From assembly GCA_949297775.1 (NCBI GenBank), contig CASFTM010000002.1, forward strand, positions 1 to 64,000: a DNA stretch of 64,000 bases, in the 5' to 3' direction. Positions 9,340 through 57,220 of the stretch are shown here, one piece after another. The position numbers were made by a program, and so were the translations under genes. Origin of the DNA: an uncultured bacterium (lineage in GTDB: Bacteria; Elusimicrobiota; Elusimicrobia; Elusimicrobiales; Elusimicrobiaceae). The notes under the pieces were generated by a model, which saw only the letters and a list, made by a program, of their open reading frames with translations, searched no databases and had not been told where the DNA came from. How positions within the stretch are numbered: position 1 is the first letter of the stretch; each line of letters opens with the position of its first letter.

Positions 9340-9675
9340 TTAATGTGATACTGTCTTGGAAAATAAATGAATAACCGCCACCCCGGCGATAATCAACCCC
9401 ATTCCCAACAACGCCGGGAAATCAGGCCTTTCCTTAAAAACAATAAATCCGGCCACTGCCGTCAAAACCGTGCCCACTCCGGCCCAAATAGCGTAAGCAA
9501 TGCCTAAGGACATTCCCTTCAGCGTCAGCCCCAGCAGCCAGAATGAACCGCCATAAGCCGCCGCGGTAAGTACGGCCCAGGCGGGAATGGTAAAACCACG
9601 GGAAGCTTTTAGCGCGCTCGTCCCCACAATTTCACACACAATCGCCCCGGCAAGCAACAGATAATATTTCCACAT
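9340..9675 (-). CDS. SMR-family small multidrug/guanidinium exporter
   Basis: A 111-aa four-TM protein of the EmrE/Gdx (DMT) type. The essential membrane carboxylate is Glu15 in GAIVCEIVGTSALK; the GIAYAIWAGVGTVL motif of TM3 and the C-terminal GVAVIHLFS match the family. The start at 9675 is two bases after the queC stop (TGATATG), so it is coupled; upstream ATGs belong to the queC frame. EmrE-like versus guanidinium exporter cannot be decided here. Confidence 0.9.
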   Translation of the reverse strand: MWKYYLLLAGAIVCEIVGTSALKASRGFTIPAWAVLTAAAYGGSFWLLGLTLKGMSLGIAYAIWAGVGTVLTAVAGFIVFKERPDFPALLGMGLIIAGVAVIHLFSKTVSH

Positions 9676-9676
9676 A

Positions 9677-11605
9677 TCAGTCCAGGGCCGTATCGTGCAC
9701 GCCGGCTTCGGCAAAGCCCTTGGCGCGCAGTTTACAGGAATCGCAATGCCCGCACGGTTTTTGTCCGCCGGCGTAACAGCTCCAGGTCAGCTCAAAAGGA
9801 ACTTTCAGCTGGGCAGCCAATTTAACAATCTGTGCCTTGGAAAGCCGCATCAGCGGGGCCAGCACTTCAATTCCTTCGCTTACCCCGGTTTTGGTCCCGC
9901 GGTTTAACGCTTCGGCCGCGGCTTTAAAAAACGCCGGGGTGCAATCCGGATAGCCCGAAAAATCCACAGCATTGGGCCCCGCAATAATGGCGGTCGCGCC
10001 CACCGCATCCAACAAGGACCCGGCAATCGCCAAGAACATCAAATTCCGCCCCGGTACGTAAGTGGACGGAATACCCTCTTTTGGGATATCTTCCACCGCA
10101 ACATCGGGCAATGCTTGTTTTTTATCCACCAACGAGCAGCAGGACAACCAAGGCAGCTCCAAGGTGATTAAATGGTGCTTTACCCCCAAATTGCGTGCAA
10201 TCATCTGCGCGGCCAGCACTTCGCGGTCGTGGCGCTGCCCGTAGGAAACGGTCAGCGCTTCACAAGTGTACCCGTGCGCCAACGCCCAATATAAACATGT
10301 GGTGGAATCCAAACCGCCCGAAAAGAGCACAATGGCTTTTTTCTTGCGTCCGGCAGAAACGGGCGACGGCACGCTGGAAAAAGTTACTTCTCCCGGCTGG
10401 ACGGATTCTCCTTGCGCCGGTGAGGCCGACAACGAACCCCGCGACGGTTGTTCCGGCTGGGAAACAGGCTCAGGCTCGGAAGCGGGGTTATTAGTCTGCG
10501 GCGCCTGTTTTAATACAGCGTCCAACAAATCATCCGACTGGGGTTCCGCCCCCGCAGGCGGTTGTGCACTTTGCGGCTGGTGCAAGAGGGAGGCCGCATC
10601 CTTGGCCAATTCCTCTTTTTCTTCTTTCACGACTTTCAAAATATCGCTGAAAAAGTTTTTCAAGCGTTTAGGTGCTTTTTCTTTCAGGGAAGAAATCCCC
10701 TCCGCCGCCGCTTTTTCTAAAGAAGAAACCGCCGGTTTAAGTTTGGAAGCAGCCGTTTGCGGTTTCTCGGTTTGCTCCGGCTGCTGCGCGTTTTGAAGGG
10801 AAGGCTCCGCCTCCGTCAAGCGGCTGTCCGCTTGCGGCTGCGAAGCGGACGGGGCGGCTTCTTCGGTTGGTATCTGCGGCATTTGCCCCGGAACTTCGGC
10901 AGGAGCGGGAGCTCCCAGCCATTGGGAGGGCGCAGGCTGGCCATATAGATGGCATACGCCGTACCCTTCCGCAGAAAAACTCACCTGCGGAACCACCGGC
11001 AGACTGTTTAATTTAAAAGCGATTTTGGCGTCTTTGTCGGCCGTTTTAGGTCCGTTCTTTTTAAATTCCACATACCGCATCGTATTCTGAAATTCGGCAA
11101 TAGCGCTCTGCGGCTTGCCAATTCCCTGGATATAATCCTTCAGCGCGGCCACACACAGGCCGTCTTCCACATCATCGGAGGTTCCATAAAGAACAGCGGG
11201 AATAAGCAGCACGTCTTTCGGCTGTGCACACAACGCGTCAGCCAAAGCCTCAAAATTGCAAAATCCGCCCACCAATATAGTGGAAGCGTTCTTGGCACGC
11301 AGAATGGCTTTCGTTCCGCACTGCGTCAGCAGCAAAGCCGGGGTGCGGGCATCAGCCTTGGAAGCCAAATAAGGGGAATTGTCTTTATGCTCCGCGGTAA
11401 GACTCACATCGCTATACACTTCAAATTGGGAATGGGTCTGCAAAAAATTGTCCGCCCGGGAAGAATCCTCAAAAATCAACACTTCCTTCTTGCCGCGGCG
11501 CATCAAAGCGCAGGCCGTAGTTCCGGCGCGCAGCACATCTATTACCACCGCCACTTCGGACCATTGTTCACATTCCGCAATACTTTTAGCTACCAGAATA
11601 TTCAT
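9677..11605 (-). CDS. queC: ComB-like phosphatase fused to QueC
   Basis: A 642-aa single ORF with two enzymes. Residues 1-222 resemble 2-phosphosulfolactate phosphatase (ComB family): VVIDVLRAGTTACAL, LLLTQCGTKAIL, ILVGGFCNFEALADAL and the VEDGL segment. Residues 223-420 are a Pro/Gln/Ala/Glu-rich linker with one amphipathic Lys-rich stretch. Residues 421-642 are a complete QueC (preQ0 synthase): PP-loop FSGGLDSTT at 428 and the Zn site CYAGGQKPCGHCDSCK near the end. QueC makes 7-cyano-7-deazaguanine for queuosine. I do not know of this fusion as a standard arrangement. It sits between a lipoprotein and an SMR gene; no queD, queE or queF is in the window. Confidence 0.85.
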   Translation of the reverse strand: MNILVAKSIAECEQWSEVAVVIDVLRAGTTACALMRRGKKEVLIFEDSSRADNFLQTHSQFEVYSDVSLTAEHKDNSPYLASKADARTPALLLTQCGTKAILRAKNASTILVGGFCNFEALADALCAQPKDVLLIPAVLYGTSDDVEDGLCVAALKDYIQGIGKPQSAIAEFQNTMRYVEFKKNGPKTADKDAKIAFKLNSLPVVPQVSFSAEGYGVCHLYGQPAPSQWLGAPAPAEVPGQMPQIPTEEAAPSASQPQADSRLTEAEPSLQNAQQPEQTEKPQTAASKLKPAVSSLEKAAAEGISSLKEKAPKRLKNFFSDILKVVKEEKEELAKDAASLLHQPQSAQPPAGAEPQSDDLLDAVLKQAPQTNNPASEPEPVSQPEQPSRGSLSASPAQGESVQPGEVTFSSVPSPVSAGRKKKAIVLFSGGLDSTTCLYWALAHGYTCEALTVSYGQRHDREVLAAQMIARNLGVKHHLITLELPWLSCCSLVDKKQALPDVAVEDIPKEGIPSTYVPGRNLMFLAIAGSLLDAVGATAIIAGPNAVDFSGYPDCTPAFFKAAAEALNRGTKTGVSEGIEVLAPLMRLSKAQIVKLAAQLKVPFELTWSCYAGGQKPCGHCDSCKLRAKGFAEAGVHDTALD

Positions 11606-12023
11606 TTAAAATCCCCAATACTTTAAAATCTTCAATGGCTTTTTCGTCTTCTTCCGTCAAATTGTCTACGTACTTAATCGCATAGATAATCAGCGTTACG
11701 CGCGGGTCCGTTGCGCCGTCCTCGGCGCTGTTATACTGACCGATGAGCATTGCATCCGCCCCTTTGGACGCCACAAACCGGCGGCCCTTTTCCACCCCCA
11801 TTTTAAGCACATCCCGGTCCGGCTGTAAATTTTTAATACGCAACAGCCCCAAATTGCCGTACGGGCGGGTAATCTCGCTTTTACTTCCCACAATTTCCAC
11901 ATTTTTGGCTTTAGTCGCCGGGAAATCAGGCCCTATGGGAATCCAGTCCAAATTGCTTTGCTCCAATGTGGCACAACCCGCCAACAACAGCGGGATGACA
12001 GCCCAAGCTAAAAATTTTCTCAT
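11586..12023 (-). CDS. Lipoprotein of unknown function
   Basis: A 145-aa protein with a lipobox (LLLAGC) after a short signal peptide. The mature part contains no motif I recognise; the phrase GADAMLIGQYNS suggests a small sandwich domain as in YjfN/YdgH or DUF4156-like lipoproteins, which is weak. The start at 12023 has a strong AGGAGGG. Its 3' end overlaps the start of the ComB-QueC gene by 20 bp, and it starts 8 bp after rlmN. Confidence 0.65.
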   Translation of the reverse strand: MRKFLAWAVIPLLLAGCATLEQSNLDWIPIGPDFPATKAKNVEIVGSKSEITRPYGNLGLLRIKNLQPDRDVLKMGVEKGRRFVASKGADAMLIGQYNSAEDGATDPRVTLIIYAIKYVDNLTEEDEKAIEDFKVLGILNEYSGS

Positions 12024-12031
12024 ATACCCTC

Positions 12032-13054
12032 CTATTTTTTCTGCGAAGCCAACTGCCCGCACGCCGCTAAAATATCGTTGCCCATACTTTTGCGGATGGT
12101 CACGCCGATACCCATGGCTTTTAAGCCGGCGGCAAAATCTTTTACCACCCGGTCGGCGGTTTTTTCGCCGCGGCCCAGGTTGCAGGCAATCAAATTTACA
12201 TGCAGCAAATAATTATCTTTAATACTGTAAATCCAGTCCGCCAGTTTGCGGATGTGTTCCGGACGGCTGTTGACGTTTTCAATGACGGAATATTCCAAAA
12301 ACACCTGACGGCCCGTCATGGCGATGTATTCTTCCAACGCTTTTTTTAAATCGTCCAAATCAAACTTGCGGTTAACAGGCATTATTTGGCTGCGTTCGGC
12401 ATTGTCGGCATTGTGCAGCGACACCGCCAAATTGGCCTGGGGCAAATCCACCGCCAGTTTGTGCAGTTTGTCGGCAATACCGGAAGTAGAAACCGAAATG
12501 TGCCGCGCGCCGATGTTCAGATAATTCGGGTCGGACAAATCCTTCGCCGCTTTGATAACGTTTAAATAATTTAACAGCGGTTCGCCCATCCCCATAAACA
12601 CCACGCTGGAAATCCGCTCTCCCAGTTTTTCCCGCCGCACATACTGGTACCACATCAGCACCTGATCGGTAATTTCTTCCTGCGTCAAATCCCGCTTAAA
12701 GCCCATCTTGCCCGTACTGCAAAACGAACAGCGCAGCGGGCAGCCCACCTGGCTGGATACGCACACGCTCCAGGTATCCTGCGGTTTTAACAGCACGGTT
12801 TCAATGCGCCAGCCGTCTTTCAGCGTCAACAAGGCTTTGGCTACTTTGTCGTGTTTGGAACAAGTAATTTCGGTTACTTCAAAACTAAGCAAGGGGCAGT
12901 CTTTTTTCAGTTGCTCCCGCAGGGACGCGGGCAGGTTGGTGGCTTCATCCCACGAAGAAATCCCCTTCTTAAAAATAGCTTCCTGAACCTGCGCAATGCG
13001 GAAATTGGGCAGGCCGGCTTCTTTGATGTATTTTTTTACAGACTCAAAATTCAT
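12032..13054 (-). CDS. rlmN: Dual-specificity 23S rRNA/tRNA A2503/A37 methyltransferase
   Basis: A 340-aa radical-SAM methyltransferase that puts a C2-methyl group on A2503 of 23S rRNA. The [4Fe-4S] motif is CPLRCSFC (C-x3-C-x2-C), followed by STGKMGF. GMGEPLLNY and the late ACGQL with the second catalytic cysteine are present. Length and motif order are normal. It is first in a five-gene minus-strand run. Confidence 0.95.
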   Translation of the reverse strand: MNFESVKKYIKEAGLPNFRIAQVQEAIFKKGISSWDEATNLPASLREQLKKDCPLLSFEVTEITCSKHDKVAKALLTLKDGWRIETVLLKPQDTWSVCVSSQVGCPLRCSFCSTGKMGFKRDLTQEEITDQVLMWYQYVRREKLGERISSVVFMGMGEPLLNYLNVIKAAKDLSDPNYLNIGARHISVSTSGIADKLHKLAVDLPQANLAVSLHNADNAERSQIMPVNRKFDLDDLKKALEEYIAMTGRQVFLEYSVIENVNSRPEHIRKLADWIYSIKDNYLLHVNLIACNLGRGEKTADRVVKDFAAGLKAMGIGVTIRKSMGNDILAACGQLASQKK

Positions 13055-51583: not shown

Positions 51584-54295
51584 ATGTTACCGAAAGCGTA
51601 CGAACCGCAAGAAGTAGAACAAAAACTCGCGGACAAATGGCAAAACGCCAAACTGTTCGCCGCCAAAGCCGATAAAAACAAAAAACCTTTTGTCATTGTT
51701 ATTCCCCCGCCCAACATTACAGGCGCTTTGCATATGGGGCACGCCTCCACCAATACCTTGCAGGATGTTTTAATCCGCGCCCACCGGATGTTCGGCGAGG
51801 ACGCCTACTGGGTGCCGGGCACGGACCACGGCGGTATCGCTACGCAAAACGTGATTGAAAAGAAACTCGCCAAAGAAGAACACAAATCCCGCCACGACCT
51901 GGGGCGCGAAGCCTTCGTGCAAACCGTGTGGGATTGGTATAATGAATGCGGCAACGCCATTTTCAACCAGTTCCGCAAAATGGGCTGGAGTTTGGATTTA
52001 TCCGACATCCGCTTTACCATGGACGAAAAACGCGCCAAAGCCGTGTACGAATGTTTCCGCCAATGGTGGGAGAAAAAATACATCTACCGCGGCAAACGCC
52101 TGATCAACTGGTGCGTGCGCTGTTCCACCGCCCTGTCCGACATTGAAGTAGAGCACGAACAGCACGCCGGAAAGCTGTGGCACCTGCGCTATAAAGGGGA
52201 GGACGGCTCGGACGGTATCGTCATCGCCACCACCCGCCCCGAAACCATTTACGCCGACGCCGCCATCGCCGTCAACCCGAAAGACGACCGCTACAAAAAT
52301 GTGGTGGGCAAAAAGGTCATCATTCCGCTGGCTAACCGCGCCATTCCGATTATCGCCGACGAAGCCGTGGAACTGGGCTTTGGTACCGGCGCCTTAAAAA
52401 TCACCCCGGCGCACGACGCGACCGACTACGAAGTAGGCCAACGCCACAACCTGCCTATGATGACGGTCATCAACGATAAAGGCAAAATGATTAACTGCCC
52501 CGAAAAATACCTGGGGATGGACCGCGAAGTCTGCCGCAAAGAAACCGTCAAAGATTTGGACGCGGCAGGCCTCCTCGTCAAAGAAGAAAAATACAACAAC
52601 GCCGTTTCCACCTGTTACCGCTGCCACAGCGCCATTGAACCGTTTATGAGCGAGCAGTGGTTTGTGAAAATGGACGAAATCGCCAAACCGGCTATTGAAG
52701 CGGCGGAATCGGGTGAACTGCAATTCCACCCGGCTAACTGGAAAAATCCGTTTTTAAATTGGCTGAAAAACATTCAGGATTGGTGCATCTCCCGCCAAAT
52801 TTGGTGGGGGCACCGTATCCCGGTGTGGTACTGCCGCCACTGCAGCGAAAAAGGCCTTACCTTCGCTACCGACCAGCAAGGCCACGAACAGCTTACCAAA
52901 GTGTCGTTTGAAGACGGCGCCCAGCCGATTGTTTCCTACGACAAACCGGAAAAATGCCCCGTTTGCGGCGGGCACGATTTGGTGCAGGACCCCGACGTGC
53001 TGGACACGTGGTTCTCGTCCGCCTTATGGCCGATGTCCGTATTCGGCTGGCCGGAAAAAACGCCGGAAATGGAACACTTTTATCCTACCAGCGTAATGGT
53101 TACCGGGTACGAAATTCTGTACCTGTGGGTGGCCCGTATGGTAATGACCGGACTGCAGTTTACGGGCCAGCTGCCGTTTAAAGACGTGTATTTAAACGGT
53201 ATCGTGCGCGATAAACACGGGCAAAAAATGTCCAAATCCAAAGGCAACGTCATTGACCCCTTGGATATGACCGCCAAATACGGCACTGACGCGGTGCGCT
53301 TTTCGCTGCTCATGCAAGCCGTGCCCAGCAAAGACATCCCGTATTCCGAAGAAAGCATCACCGGTGCGCGCAACTTCTGCAACAAAATCTACAACGCTTC
53401 GCGCTTTATTCTGATGAATATGGAAGGCATCCAAGGCCCGCTGGCAATGCCCGCCGACATTACCGAACTGGCCGATAAATGGATTTTGGACCGCTTTAAC
53501 AACGCCGTTAAAACCGCGCGTGAAGGCATTGAAAAATACAACCTCGCGCTGACGGCAAATACGCTGTACCACTTCCTGTGGGGCGATTTCTGCGATTGGT
53601 ACGTGGAACTGGCCAAACAGCGCTTCCAAACCGCCGAAAAAGAAAAAGTAATGGCCCTGTGCGTCAACATTCTTTACGTCACGTTAAAAGCGCTCCACCC
53701 GCTCATTCCGTTCATCACGGAAGAAATCGCTTCTTCCCTGCGCCCGTACGTCGGCGAAAAAGAAGAATTTCTGCTCAACAAGTCCTACCCGCAGTTTAAC
53801 CCGGCCTGGTGCAATAAAGAAGCCGTACGCAAAATAGAAATCATCCAGGGCGTCACGCGTGAAATCCGCACCATCCGCTCGCAGTTTAACGTGCCCCCGG
53901 GCCTAAAAATTACCGCCGTACTGACGGCTAAAGACGAAGCGGAACTGTCCGTGGTAAAAGAATACGCAAATTACATCAAGCTGATGGCCAAAGTGGATAA
54001 TCTGCAAATCGGCGTAAATTTGGAAAAACCCAAACAAACCGCCACCGCCGTGTTTGAAAACATCACGGTTTACGTTCCGTTAACGGGGCTGATTGATTTT
54101 GAAAAAGAAAGAAAACGCCTGGAAAAAGACCTCGCCGCCGCCAAAGCTAACATCGCTTCGCGCGAAGCGCGCCTGGCGCAGGAAAACTTTATCAAACACG
54201 CCCCCCAAGAACAAATAGACAAAACGAAAGCCGAACTGGCCGCCGCCAAGCTGACCTTGGCGCAGGTAACGGCTTCCTTGGAGGATTTAGCCTAA
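51584..54295 (+). CDS. valS: Valyl-tRNA synthetase
   Basis: A 903-aa class Ia synthetase. HIGH-type motif PPNITGALHMGHA (40s), GTDHGGIATQ, KMSKS at GQKMSKSKGN, the CP1 editing domain and the C-terminal coiled coil (FEKERKRLEKDLAAAKANIA) specific to ValRS. Its stop overlaps the next ATG by one base. Confidence 0.97.
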   Translation: MLPKAYEPQEVEQKLADKWQNAKLFAAKADKNKKPFVIVIPPPNITGALHMGHASTNTLQDVLIRAHRMFGEDAYWVPGTDHGGIATQNVIEKKLAKEEHKSRHDLGREAFVQTVWDWYNECGNAIFNQFRKMGWSLDLSDIRFTMDEKRAKAVYECFRQWWEKKYIYRGKRLINWCVRCSTALSDIEVEHEQHAGKLWHLRYKGEDGSDGIVIATTRPETIYADAAIAVNPKDDRYKNVVGKKVIIPLANRAIPIIADEAVELGFGTGALKITPAHDATDYEVGQRHNLPMMTVINDKGKMINCPEKYLGMDREVCRKETVKDLDAAGLLVKEEKYNNAVSTCYRCHSAIEPFMSEQWFVKMDEIAKPAIEAAESGELQFHPANWKNPFLNWLKNIQDWCISRQIWWGHRIPVWYCRHCSEKGLTFATDQQGHEQLTKVSFEDGAQPIVSYDKPEKCPVCGGHDLVQDPDVLDTWFSSALWPMSVFGWPEKTPEMEHFYPTSVMVTGYEILYLWVARMVMTGLQFTGQLPFKDVYLNGIVRDKHGQKMSKSKGNVIDPLDMTAKYGTDAVRFSLLMQAVPSKDIPYSEESITGARNFCNKIYNASRFILMNMEGIQGPLAMPADITELADKWILDRFNNAVKTAREGIEKYNLALTANTLYHFLWGDFCDWYVELAKQRFQTAEKEKVMALCVNILYVTLKALHPLIPFITEEIASSLRPYVGEKEEFLLNKSYPQFNPAWCNKEAVRKIEIIQGVTREIRTIRSQFNVPPGLKITAVLTAKDEAELSVVKEYANYIKLMAKVDNLQIGVNLEKPKQTATAVFENITVYVPLTGLIDFEKERKRLEKDLAAAKANIASREARLAQENFIKHAPQEQIDKTKAELAAAKLTLAQVTASLEDLA

Positions 54296-55677
54296 TGAAT
54301 AAACTCATTAAAATCGCCGCCTTGGCGGGCGCTGCGCTTTTCCCGCTTACCGCCGCGGCGCAGGATATGGATTGGAAATTCGTCACCCGTTACGATAAAG
54401 CCGAAGCCAAAAAACAACTGACTGAACGCTTTACCAAATACGTCACGTTTGATACCCAATCCAGCGACAAGACCGACAAAATTCCCAGCACTTCCGGTCA
54501 AACCAAATTGGCTAAAGCGCTGGCTAAAGAACTTAAGAAAAACGGCGCCAAAAATGTAAAAGTGGACAAATATTCCATTGTAACGGCGGAAATTCCCGCC
54601 AATACCGCAGCCAACGCGCCGACGGTGGCTTTTCTGGCGCATATGGATACGGCGCTGGAAGCTTCCGGCAAAGACGTTAAACCCCAGGTTCACACCAATT
54701 ACCAAGGGGGCGACCTCGTCATTAATGCGGCGCAAAATCTTATCATTAACCCCGCCAACTCCCCCCAGCTTTCCCGCGCGCGGGGGCACGATATCATCAC
54801 CGCGTCGGGCGATACTCTGTTGGGTGCGGACGATAAAACAGGCGTAGCGATTATTATGACGCTGGTCCAGTATCTCTACGACCACCCGGAAATGCAACAC
54901 GGGACAATCAAAATCGCTTTTACCCCCGACGAAGAAACCGGCGCTGGCATAGAAAAGTTTGACGTCGCTTCCTTCGGGGCCGACTATGCCTATACCGTAG
55001 ACGGCGGCGATTTGGGCCAGCTGACCAACGAAACCTTTAGCGCCAAAGCCTTTACCGCCGTATTTGAAGGAATGCGTGCCGTACACCCCGGGGAAGCTAT
55101 GAATTCCGCTTTTTCGGATAACGTGCTGATGGCGTCGGACTTTCACACCCTGCTGCCCCGCCACCGCCGGCCCGAAACCACCGCCGACCGCCGCGGATTT
55201 ATCCTAGTGGACTCCATTACCACCGTTGGCGACCGCACGGAAGTAAAAGGCATTATCCGCGCGTTTTCGGACGAAGAAATGCAGGACCTCGTCAACGAAG
55301 TCACCCGCGCTTTCAATACCGTAAAAGGGATGAACTACAAAGGCAAAAACTTTGCGCTGACGATTACCGACCAATATAAAAATATGAAACCTGTTCTGCC
55401 GGAACAGATGGTTTCGCTGGCCCAGCTGGCTATGCAAAGCGAAGATATTACCCCCGTGCTGACCGCCGCCCGCGGCGGGACGGACGGGTCCTCGCTGTCC
55501 TTTATGGGCCTGCCCACGCCGGACATTTTCGCCGGGCAATACAACATCCACAGCGTCCGGGAATATGCGGACGTGGATGTAATGGAAGCGTCGCTTCGTA
55601 CGCTCTTGCGGCTGGTTTCGCTGTGGGCTATGCAGCAACCCCAGCCGGAAGCGCGGGACGCCGCCCAAACTTTGTAG
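54295..55677 (+). CDS. Exported PepT-like M20 peptidase 1
   Basis: A 460-aa metallopeptidase close to peptidase T (tripeptidase) but with a signal peptide (to about Ala22). Zinc motifs: AHMDT, LGADDKTGV, TPDEETGAG, and late QYNIHS. HRRPETTADRRGF and RGGTDGSSLSFMGLP are PepT features. PepT is normally cytosolic, so an envelope tripeptidase is indicated. Start overlaps valS. Confidence 0.85.
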   Translation: MNKLIKIAALAGAALFPLTAAAQDMDWKFVTRYDKAEAKKQLTERFTKYVTFDTQSSDKTDKIPSTSGQTKLAKALAKELKKNGAKNVKVDKYSIVTAEIPANTAANAPTVAFLAHMDTALEASGKDVKPQVHTNYQGGDLVINAAQNLIINPANSPQLSRARGHDIITASGDTLLGADDKTGVAIIMTLVQYLYDHPEMQHGTIKIAFTPDEETGAGIEKFDVASFGADYAYTVDGGDLGQLTNETFSAKAFTAVFEGMRAVHPGEAMNSAFSDNVLMASDFHTLLPRHRRPETTADRRGFILVDSITTVGDRTEVKGIIRAFSDEEMQDLVNEVTRAFNTVKGMNYKGKNFALTITDQYKNMKPVLPEQMVSLAQLAMQSEDITPVLTAARGGTDGSSLSFMGLPTPDIFAGQYNIHSVREYADVDVMEASLRTLLRLVSLWAMQQPQPEARDAAQTL

Positions 55678-55685
55678 TTTTGCAA

Positions 55686-55713
55686 AACGCCCGCCTAAGA
55701 AGCGGGCGTTTTT
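55686..55713 (+). terminator. Intrinsic terminator
   Basis: AAACGCCCGC / GCGGGCGTTT stem between the two peptidase genes. Confidence 0.85.
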
Positions 55714-55837
55714 ATTTTTAGGTATTTTTGCCCGCGCGGTCCCGCTATAAAGGCCTAACCCTTTGTGGGCCTTTTGGCCCTTGCGTAAACCGGCGGCAGA
55801 TTCATACAATAAAGGAAAGTTACAATAAGGAGCCTGT

Positions 55838-57220
55838 ATGCAAATGAAAAAGCTGTTAGCCGTATTGTCCGTATTTATATTTGGCGCATCGTTTGCGAGC
55901 CAAGCCTATGCCGCCGCAGCGCCATACGAACGGACTTATATTAAATCCTCCGTCCGGGCTAATATCGGACGCCAAAACAACAAGTTGGCTGCCAAATACC
56001 GCGCCACCATGCTCAACCGTTTTCTGCACTACACCACTTACGACAGCCAAAGCAGCGATGCCGTTGCCATCACGCCGGAACAAATTGAAACCGCAAAAAA
56101 GCTTTATGCGGAAATTCAAAAATTCGGCTTCAAAACGGAACTGACGAAAAATTATTATATTTATGTAGAAATTCCGTCTAACGTCAGCTGGAAAACCCCT
56201 ACCTTGGGTTTCAGCTGCCACTACGACACCACCCCCGATATTTTGGGCAAAGGCATTAAAGCCCAAAAAATTGAAAAGTACGACGGCAAACCGATTGAAC
56301 TGAAAAACGGCCATGTATTAAGCACCGAAACCGACCCGTATTTAAAACAGATGATCGGCAAAACCATCGTTACCTCCGACGGGACCACTATGCTTTCCGC
56401 CGATGACAAAGCCGGAGTATCCGTGTTGGTCACGCTTATTCAAACCCTGGCGGAAAACCCGTCTAAAAAACACGGTAAAATCCAAATCGTCATCACCCCG
56501 AACGAAGACGTGGGCCGCTCGGCTGATTTTATTGAAGAAACCCCCTACAATCCGGACATTGCCTTTGACTTTGACGGCGGCGTAAACGGCGAAGTGGTGG
56601 TGGGCAACTTCAATGCGGAAAAAGTAATTTATAAAGTGCACGGCGTCAACGGGCACCAGTCTATGGCGGCGGAAAACGGCTACCGCAACGCTTGGAAACC
56701 CGCCTGCGAACTCGGCGCCGCCTGCGCCCAGGAACAATGGCTGCCCAATAACAGCACCGGCAAACAAGGCTATGTGGAACTGCACCATATGGATATGAGC
56801 GAGGGGAAAGTAAACGTAGCCGAGTTAGACTTCCGCCTGCGCGATTTCAACCAGCAAAACATTGAAAACTGGAAGAACTATGCCGACAGTGTAGCTACCC
56901 AAATCAGCAGCAAGTTCGGCGTAAAAATTGAACGCGAAATTTACAAACAATACGGCAACGTCGCCGAGAACATCCACCCGCAGGCCCGCCAGGTGGTAAC
57001 GAACGCCCTGCAGAATGCCGGAATCACCCCGAACTTTAAAGAAGAACGCGCGGGGACCACGGCTTCTATGTTAATGCTCAAATTGGGCAACGGCGCTTAT
57101 ACGCTGTTTACGGGGCAGAACAATCCGCACGCGTTTACGGAATGGCTCAGCGAAGAAGATATGTACAAAGCCTTCCTCGTTGCGCTGAACTTGACGGACG
57201 AAGTAGTCATGATGAAATAA
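55838..57220 (+). CDS. Exported PepT-like M20 peptidase 2
   Basis: A paralogue of the preceding gene, 460 aa with a signal peptide (to about Ala26). Zinc motifs have diverged: SCHYDT for HMDT, SADDKAGV, TPNEDVG for TPDEETG, NNPHAF at the last histidine; the PepT arginine motif is lost. It may have another specificity or weak activity. AAGGAG before ATG; the terminator upstream means separate transcription. Confidence 0.8.
   Translation: MQMKKLLAVLSVFIFGASFASQAYAAAAPYERTYIKSSVRANIGRQNNKLAAKYRATMLNRFLHYTTYDSQSSDAVAITPEQIETAKKLYAEIQKFGFKTELTKNYYIYVEIPSNVSWKTPTLGFSCHYDTTPDILGKGIKAQKIEKYDGKPIELKNGHVLSTETDPYLKQMIGKTIVTSDGTTMLSADDKAGVSVLVTLIQTLAENPSKKHGKIQIVITPNEDVGRSADFIEETPYNPDIAFDFDGGVNGEVVVGNFNAEKVIYKVHGVNGHQSMAAENGYRNAWKPACELGAACAQEQWLPNNSTGKQGYVELHHMDMSEGKVNVAELDFRLRDFNQQNIENWKNYADSVATQISSKFGVKIEREIYKQYGNVAENIHPQARQVVTNALQNAGITPNFKEERAGTTASMLMLKLGNGAYTLFTGQNNPHAFTEWLSEEDMYKAFLVALNLTDEVVMMK

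Follow-up and report, generated by a model that had tools for sequence, protein, structure and literature searches.

Why should a ComB-like phosphatase domain and the queuosine enzyme QueC be encoded in a single reading frame? The question is raised by one open reading frame (ORF) in the window, the whole 64,000-nucleotide stretch of contig CASFTM010000002.1 analyzed here, which comes from an uncultured member of the Elusimicrobiaceae. ComB enzymes hydrolyze phosphate esters of 2-hydroxy acids, in the route to coenzyme M they work together with ComA, and we know of no substrate assigned to members of the ComB family outside organisms that make coenzyme M or sulfolactate. As far as the literature searched extends, both domains are known and their fusion and operon are unreported: no paper was found that mentions 2-phosphosulfolactate phosphatase together with queuosine or QueC, and the main text of a 2026 survey of the QueC family makes no mention of a phosphatase or of PF04029. 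A conserved operon and a fusion with queC and queE offer a concrete context for finding the substrate of a ComB-family protein and make an accessory ComB role in queuosine synthesis testable.

The fusion protein

The fusion ORF (9677..11605, minus strand) runs uninterrupted from an ATG start and encodes 642 residues. It consists of a ComB-fold domain (residues 1–225; 10931..11605, minus strand), a mostly disordered linker (residues 226–419; 10349..10930, minus strand; pLDDT ~30 over most of it), and a canonical QueC domain (residues 420–642; 9677..10348, minus strand). The Pfam family 2-ph_phosp (PF04029) matches residues 10–164 at 74 bits (cut-off, 26.4), and QueC (PF06508) matches residues 423–634 at 241 bits (cut-off, 22). 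The original prediction, that one ORF joins a ComB-like domain with its key motifs to a full QueC through a linker of about 200 residues, was borne out by the ORF, Pfam, motif, and AlphaFold2 evidence; the linker measured ~195 residues, and most of the ComB motifs are retained. In the fusions, the region ahead of QueC holds no conserved internal start preceded by a Shine–Dalgarno site.

The canonical QueC signature comprises SGGxDS, YxQxHxxE, VPxRN, YPDC, and a four-cysteine zinc motif (PMC13329287). The QueC half carries SGGLDS, YGQRHDRE, VPGRN, YPDC, and a four-cysteine zinc site with the spacing C-x7-CxxCxxC, and it scores 213 bits against the NCBIfam equivalog TIGR00364 (cut-off, 150); the catalytic motifs are complete in all 31 fusions that we identified. 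In its full domain, catalytic motifs, and zinc site it resembles the 7-cyano-7-deazaguanine synthases (PF06508, TIGR00364; 3BL5, 2PG3), from which the protein differs by a ~420-residue N-terminal extension made up of the ComB domain and linker. We propose that the QueC half supplies preQ0 for the queuosine of tRNA. QatC and Cap9, QueC-family proteins of anti-phage systems, share the fold; unlike theirs, the signature here is canonical and complete, and the neighbors are rlmN, a lipoprotein gene, and a transporter gene rather than defense genes. A defense role for the QueC half was rejected on its canonical motifs.

The ComB half is modeled by AlphaFold2 at a pLDDT of 96.8, and the only clear PDB matches to the model are the ComB structures 1VR0, 2Z0J, and 2YYV (Z 23–26; VIA Z 25–26 to 1VR0 and 2Z0J). 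Taking family-invariant positions as a proxy for the active site, we found every position tested to be kept, except that Glu66 of the family is Asp in the window protein. It is like ComB (PF04029) in fold and in most family-invariant residues. It is unlike a ComB enzyme in that its identity to the solved members is just 20–22%, its score against the ComB equivalog TIGR00298 (40 bits) lies far below the cut-off of 175, its genome lacks ComA, it belongs to a queuosine gene block, and its conserved residues have been partly relaxed after fusion.

Distribution of the fusion

A survey of gene fusions across related genomes, which had been put forward as a check on the original prediction, yielded 31 fused ComB–QueC loci in all, in the family of the window. 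Within the genus of the window, ComB was found in 19 of 37 genomes, always inside a fused ORF of 570 to 786 residues. The remaining 18 have no ComB. QueC is present in all 37, as a plain ORF of 224 to 261 residues in those 18. Short-linker fusions also occur outside the genus, three in number: two belong to a second genus of the family (g13), and one lies on an Elusimicrobia contig (L210) that groups with them. Separate genes occur in the family as well: one member (G166) still has the separate-gene block, and in representatives of two other genera (G170 and G247) comB lies away from queC. In a sister family, ComB is separate from QueC in every case. Among a phylum sample of 248 genomes, PF04029 was restricted to this order, the Elusimicrobiales. 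G170 carries its QueC, which is divergent (165 bits), and its ComB, which looks more canonical, on different contigs (L136 and L161), possibly as a result of replacement by transfer.

The queuosine operon of the sister family

The gene order in the sister family is a lipoprotein gene (c1), comB, queC, queE, and a gene for a ~101-residue zinc-ribbon/coil protein (c15). The comB–queC–queE block is kept over about ten sister-family genera, mostly with 4-nt overlaps. In a scan of contigs, comB immediately preceded queC in 48 unfused loci, 28 of which had the exact 4-nt comB/queC overlap, and among the unfused relatives fetched comB was immediately upstream of queC in nearly all, the exception being a sister-family genome (G053) in which the two are apart. 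A 4-nt overlap is the usual sign of translational coupling, and a single indel there can yield a fusion. Since comB and queC are separate yet overlapping in a conserved block of the sister family, we infer that the fusion arose from a queuosine operon. Outside the phylum, queC was found in the fetched flanks of none of 18 ComB loci, a scan that used one degenerate peptide pattern and so sampled canonical ComBs poorly.

The c15 protein (L063:6154-6453 and relatives), present in all 24 sister-family genomes searched, is uncharacterized; it has a zinc-ribbon-like start (CPxCxxRIE) and an invariant DLD end. One sister-family genome (G052; completeness, 89%) is without comB, queC, and queD and retains TGT and c15, a gene set as expected of a queuosine-precursor salvager.

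Pathway context

ComA was found in none of the 61 genomes of relatives by a search that recovers it in B. subtilis and M. jannaschii. Because of this absence, ComA-made phosphosulfolactate is excluded as the substrate, and a role in coenzyme M synthesis was rejected. TGT was detected in 60 and QueD in 59 of the 61 genomes by family search. The genome of the window has TGT and QueD by the same search and queE- and folE-like ORFs read beside queD; its queE lies away from the fusion in a queD–queE–folE–folP–PTPS–folK-like cluster, whose genes were named from reading the ORFs, except for the two PTPS genes, which were found by family search. The cluster (L269:5870-8494; G000:C11) thus holds two PTPS-family genes, the second of which may take the place of FolB in making folate.

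The idea that ComB fills a gap before preQ0 is unsupported, since QueD was found with queE- and folE-like genes adjoining it; the route up to preQ0 appears to be complete. The suggestion that the fusion marks a role in deazapurine or phosphate handling divides into two parts. The link itself has become stronger, through the overlapping comB–queC–queE block and the absence of ComA; a catalytic role is weakened by the presence of QueD and the queE- and folE-like genes, by the frequent occurrence of QueC without ComB, and by the loss of conserved ComB residues. The search for queD or queE near other copies of the pair turned up queE in the sister-family block; the queE of the window's genome keeps company with queD.

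A possible accessory module or passenger of the operon

The explanation we favor, held tentatively and at slightly less than an even chance, is that a ComB recruited into the operon was fused to QueC as an accessory phosphatase-type module that is decaying in some lineages. An ancestor of the Elusimicrobiales would have recruited a ComB-fold phosphatase gene into a queuosine operon whose genes overlap and are probably coupled in translation, and comB and queC would then have merged into one reading frame in the window's family. In the genus, the junction would have grown into a long disordered linker with a helix like the tail of c15, and the c15 gene would have been lost. The ComB half would most likely be a phosphatase-type module that depends on metal and acts on a small phosphorylated metabolite; made in a fixed ratio with QueC, it would be useful enough to have been kept in the operon yet dispensable, and would be decaying in some lineages. 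That it is still catalytic, and on what, is conjecture. Counting against the accessory-module explanation are the 18 ComB-less genomes in the genus, the residue losses, the lack of a preQ0 gap, and the 0 of 18 links outside the phylum.

The ComB half is under purifying selection and evolves faster than QueC. Pairwise dN/dS is mostly 0.03 to 0.3 for the ComB half, ~0.13 to 0.41 for the linker, and ~0.02 to 0.1 for QueC, values that are reliable only for the closest pairs, many synonymous distances being saturated; the ComB values, well below 1 yet above those of QueC, indicate a domain that is constrained, less so than QueC. Asp23, Ser77, Pro78, Asn117, and Asp148 are unchanged in all 31 fused ComBs. 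Arg26 has been lost in 6 of the 31 and Gly97 in 13, and Thr94 also varies; the positions that vary in fusions (Arg26, Gly97) are nearly invariant in separate ComB genes.

Loss has gone further in the ComB-less genomes, in which QueC starts no more than 10 nt after the lipoprotein gene or overlaps it. In a tree of QueC and RlmN, a single clade of ComB-less genus members was rejected (p-AU, 7e-6). Six of them branch, well supported, from within the fused group; their ancestor was therefore fused and lost ComB and the linker but kept QueC. The remaining twelve form one clade next to everything else, and here ComB may equally have been lost before the fusion as after it. At least once, then, a fused gene has shed its ComB half with QueC left intact. 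Its faster evolution, its loss in several lineages of conserved residues in the active-site region, and this deletion make the ComB half an accessory module, dispensable for preQ0 synthesis. Fused, operonic, and ComB-less relatives together form a natural series of fusion, linker growth, relaxation, and loss. In the QueC ORFs of two ComB-less members of the genus (L102 of G003 and L114 of G026), the P-loop reads SSGLDS instead of SGGLDS.

Much of this record would also be expected if comB had merely hitch-hiked in the operon and been fused near-neutrally, the ComB half serving a housekeeping substrate of its own, unrelated to queuosine, and now being shed. Such an origin is quite possible, if improbable on balance, and the accessory module that we favor is little more likely than a purely neutral association. 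It would account for the trees showing more than one loss of ComB in which QueC stayed intact, for the loss in fusions of residues that separate genes keep, for the presence of preQ0 pathway genes without ComB, for the lack of any comB–queC link found outside the order, and for the distance between comB and queC in G170 and G247. It sits poorly with the retention of the comB–queC–queE block, mostly with its 4-nt overlap, across so many sister-family genera, with purifying selection on the ComB half after fusion, and with the joint absence of comB, queC, and queD in G052.

The linker and a possible scaffold

Across the fusions the linker ranges from ~12 to ~350 residues, with an abundance of Pro, Glu, Gln, Ser, and Ala. 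In the full-length AlphaFold2 model the linker is disordered, save mainly for helices at residues 314–341 and 358–366, predicted with modest confidence. These belong to a conserved motif (residues 310–369; 10499..10678, minus strand), in which the first helix, RLKNFFSDILKVVKEEKEEL, is followed by the SDDLLDAVLK helix. An RLKxFFSxIxxxVKEEKEEL-like motif, mostly followed by a DDPLDxLLK-like motif, occurs in 26 of 28 long linkers, a count made with a pattern loosened and tuned on these same linkers, strict regular expressions having missed most copies. The motif is missing from the short-linker fusions of g13, and no strong match to it was found outside fusions in 27 genomes.

The linker motif resembles the tail of c15, whose gene adjoins queE in the sister family. 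A c15 profile gave one match at E < 0.01 among the 37 genomes of the genus, located inside a fusion linker, and no other copy of c15 at that threshold. Searched against 3,288 sister-family ORFs, a linker profile ranked c15 proteins 1st to 28th, which, these being mutual homologues, amounts to one observation. An hhalign comparison of linker and c15 scored 28 (probability, 65%), compared with a maximum of 17.8 in 60 column shuffles. Chance likeness is a real risk because Lys/Glu-rich helices are involved and single E-values are weak (0.0076); on these sequence comparisons, the linker helix probably descends from the c15 tail or mimics it.

A conserved helical motif within an otherwise unalignable disordered linker, resembling a protein encoded beside queE, could mean that the ComB half is becoming a noncatalytic ligand-binding or oligomerizing domain and that the helix serves as a docking site for QueE, QueD, or some other partner, so that the fusion organizes preQ0 synthesis. 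The invariance of Asp23, Ser77, Pro78, Asn117, and Asp148 while Arg26, Thr94, and Gly97 vary would suit a scaffold or sensor of this kind, an unlikely reading given that the acidic core and Arg26 are kept in the window protein and most fusions and that the g13 fusions do without the motif. It is doubtful, if somewhat less so, that the ComB-like proteins of the Elusimicrobiales form a new component of 7-deazapurine synthesis specific to that order, the fusion merging the products of three genes from a single operon (ComB, the zinc-ribbon helix, and QueC) into one scaffolded enzyme.

A true 2-phosphosulfolactate phosphatase that serves the synthesis of coenzyme M or sulfolactate and was joined to QueC by accident would share the fold and the Pfam family; it is largely refuted, and very improbable, in view of the missing ComA and the low ComB equivalog score. 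That the fusion is an assembly or frameshift artifact is of practically negligible probability and refuted by the 31 fused loci, which span separate assemblies, including one genome in a single contig; nor do all close relatives carry separate comB and queC genes with signs of a local artifact, the pattern that had been named as telling against the fusion.

Neighborhood of the fusion in the window

Upstream, a small predicted lipoprotein gene of family c1 (11586..12062, minus strand), conserved in relatives, overlaps the start of the fusion by 20 nt; c1 was present in 48 of 59 loci examined. It belongs to no Pfam family and stays beside queC even after ComB loss. Next to it lies rlmN, encoding a 23S rRNA methyltransferase (12032..13054, minus strand), assigned by Pfam and conserved family-wide. 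The downstream neighbor is a gene for a small multidrug resistance-type transporter (9340..9714, minus strand; Pfam), kept in some relatives and not in all. An Rfam scan of the window found no preQ1 riboswitch at gathering score, one tRNA being the sole match. Elsewhere in the window (54295-57220) there are two adjacent genes for M20-type peptidases of 460 residues each.
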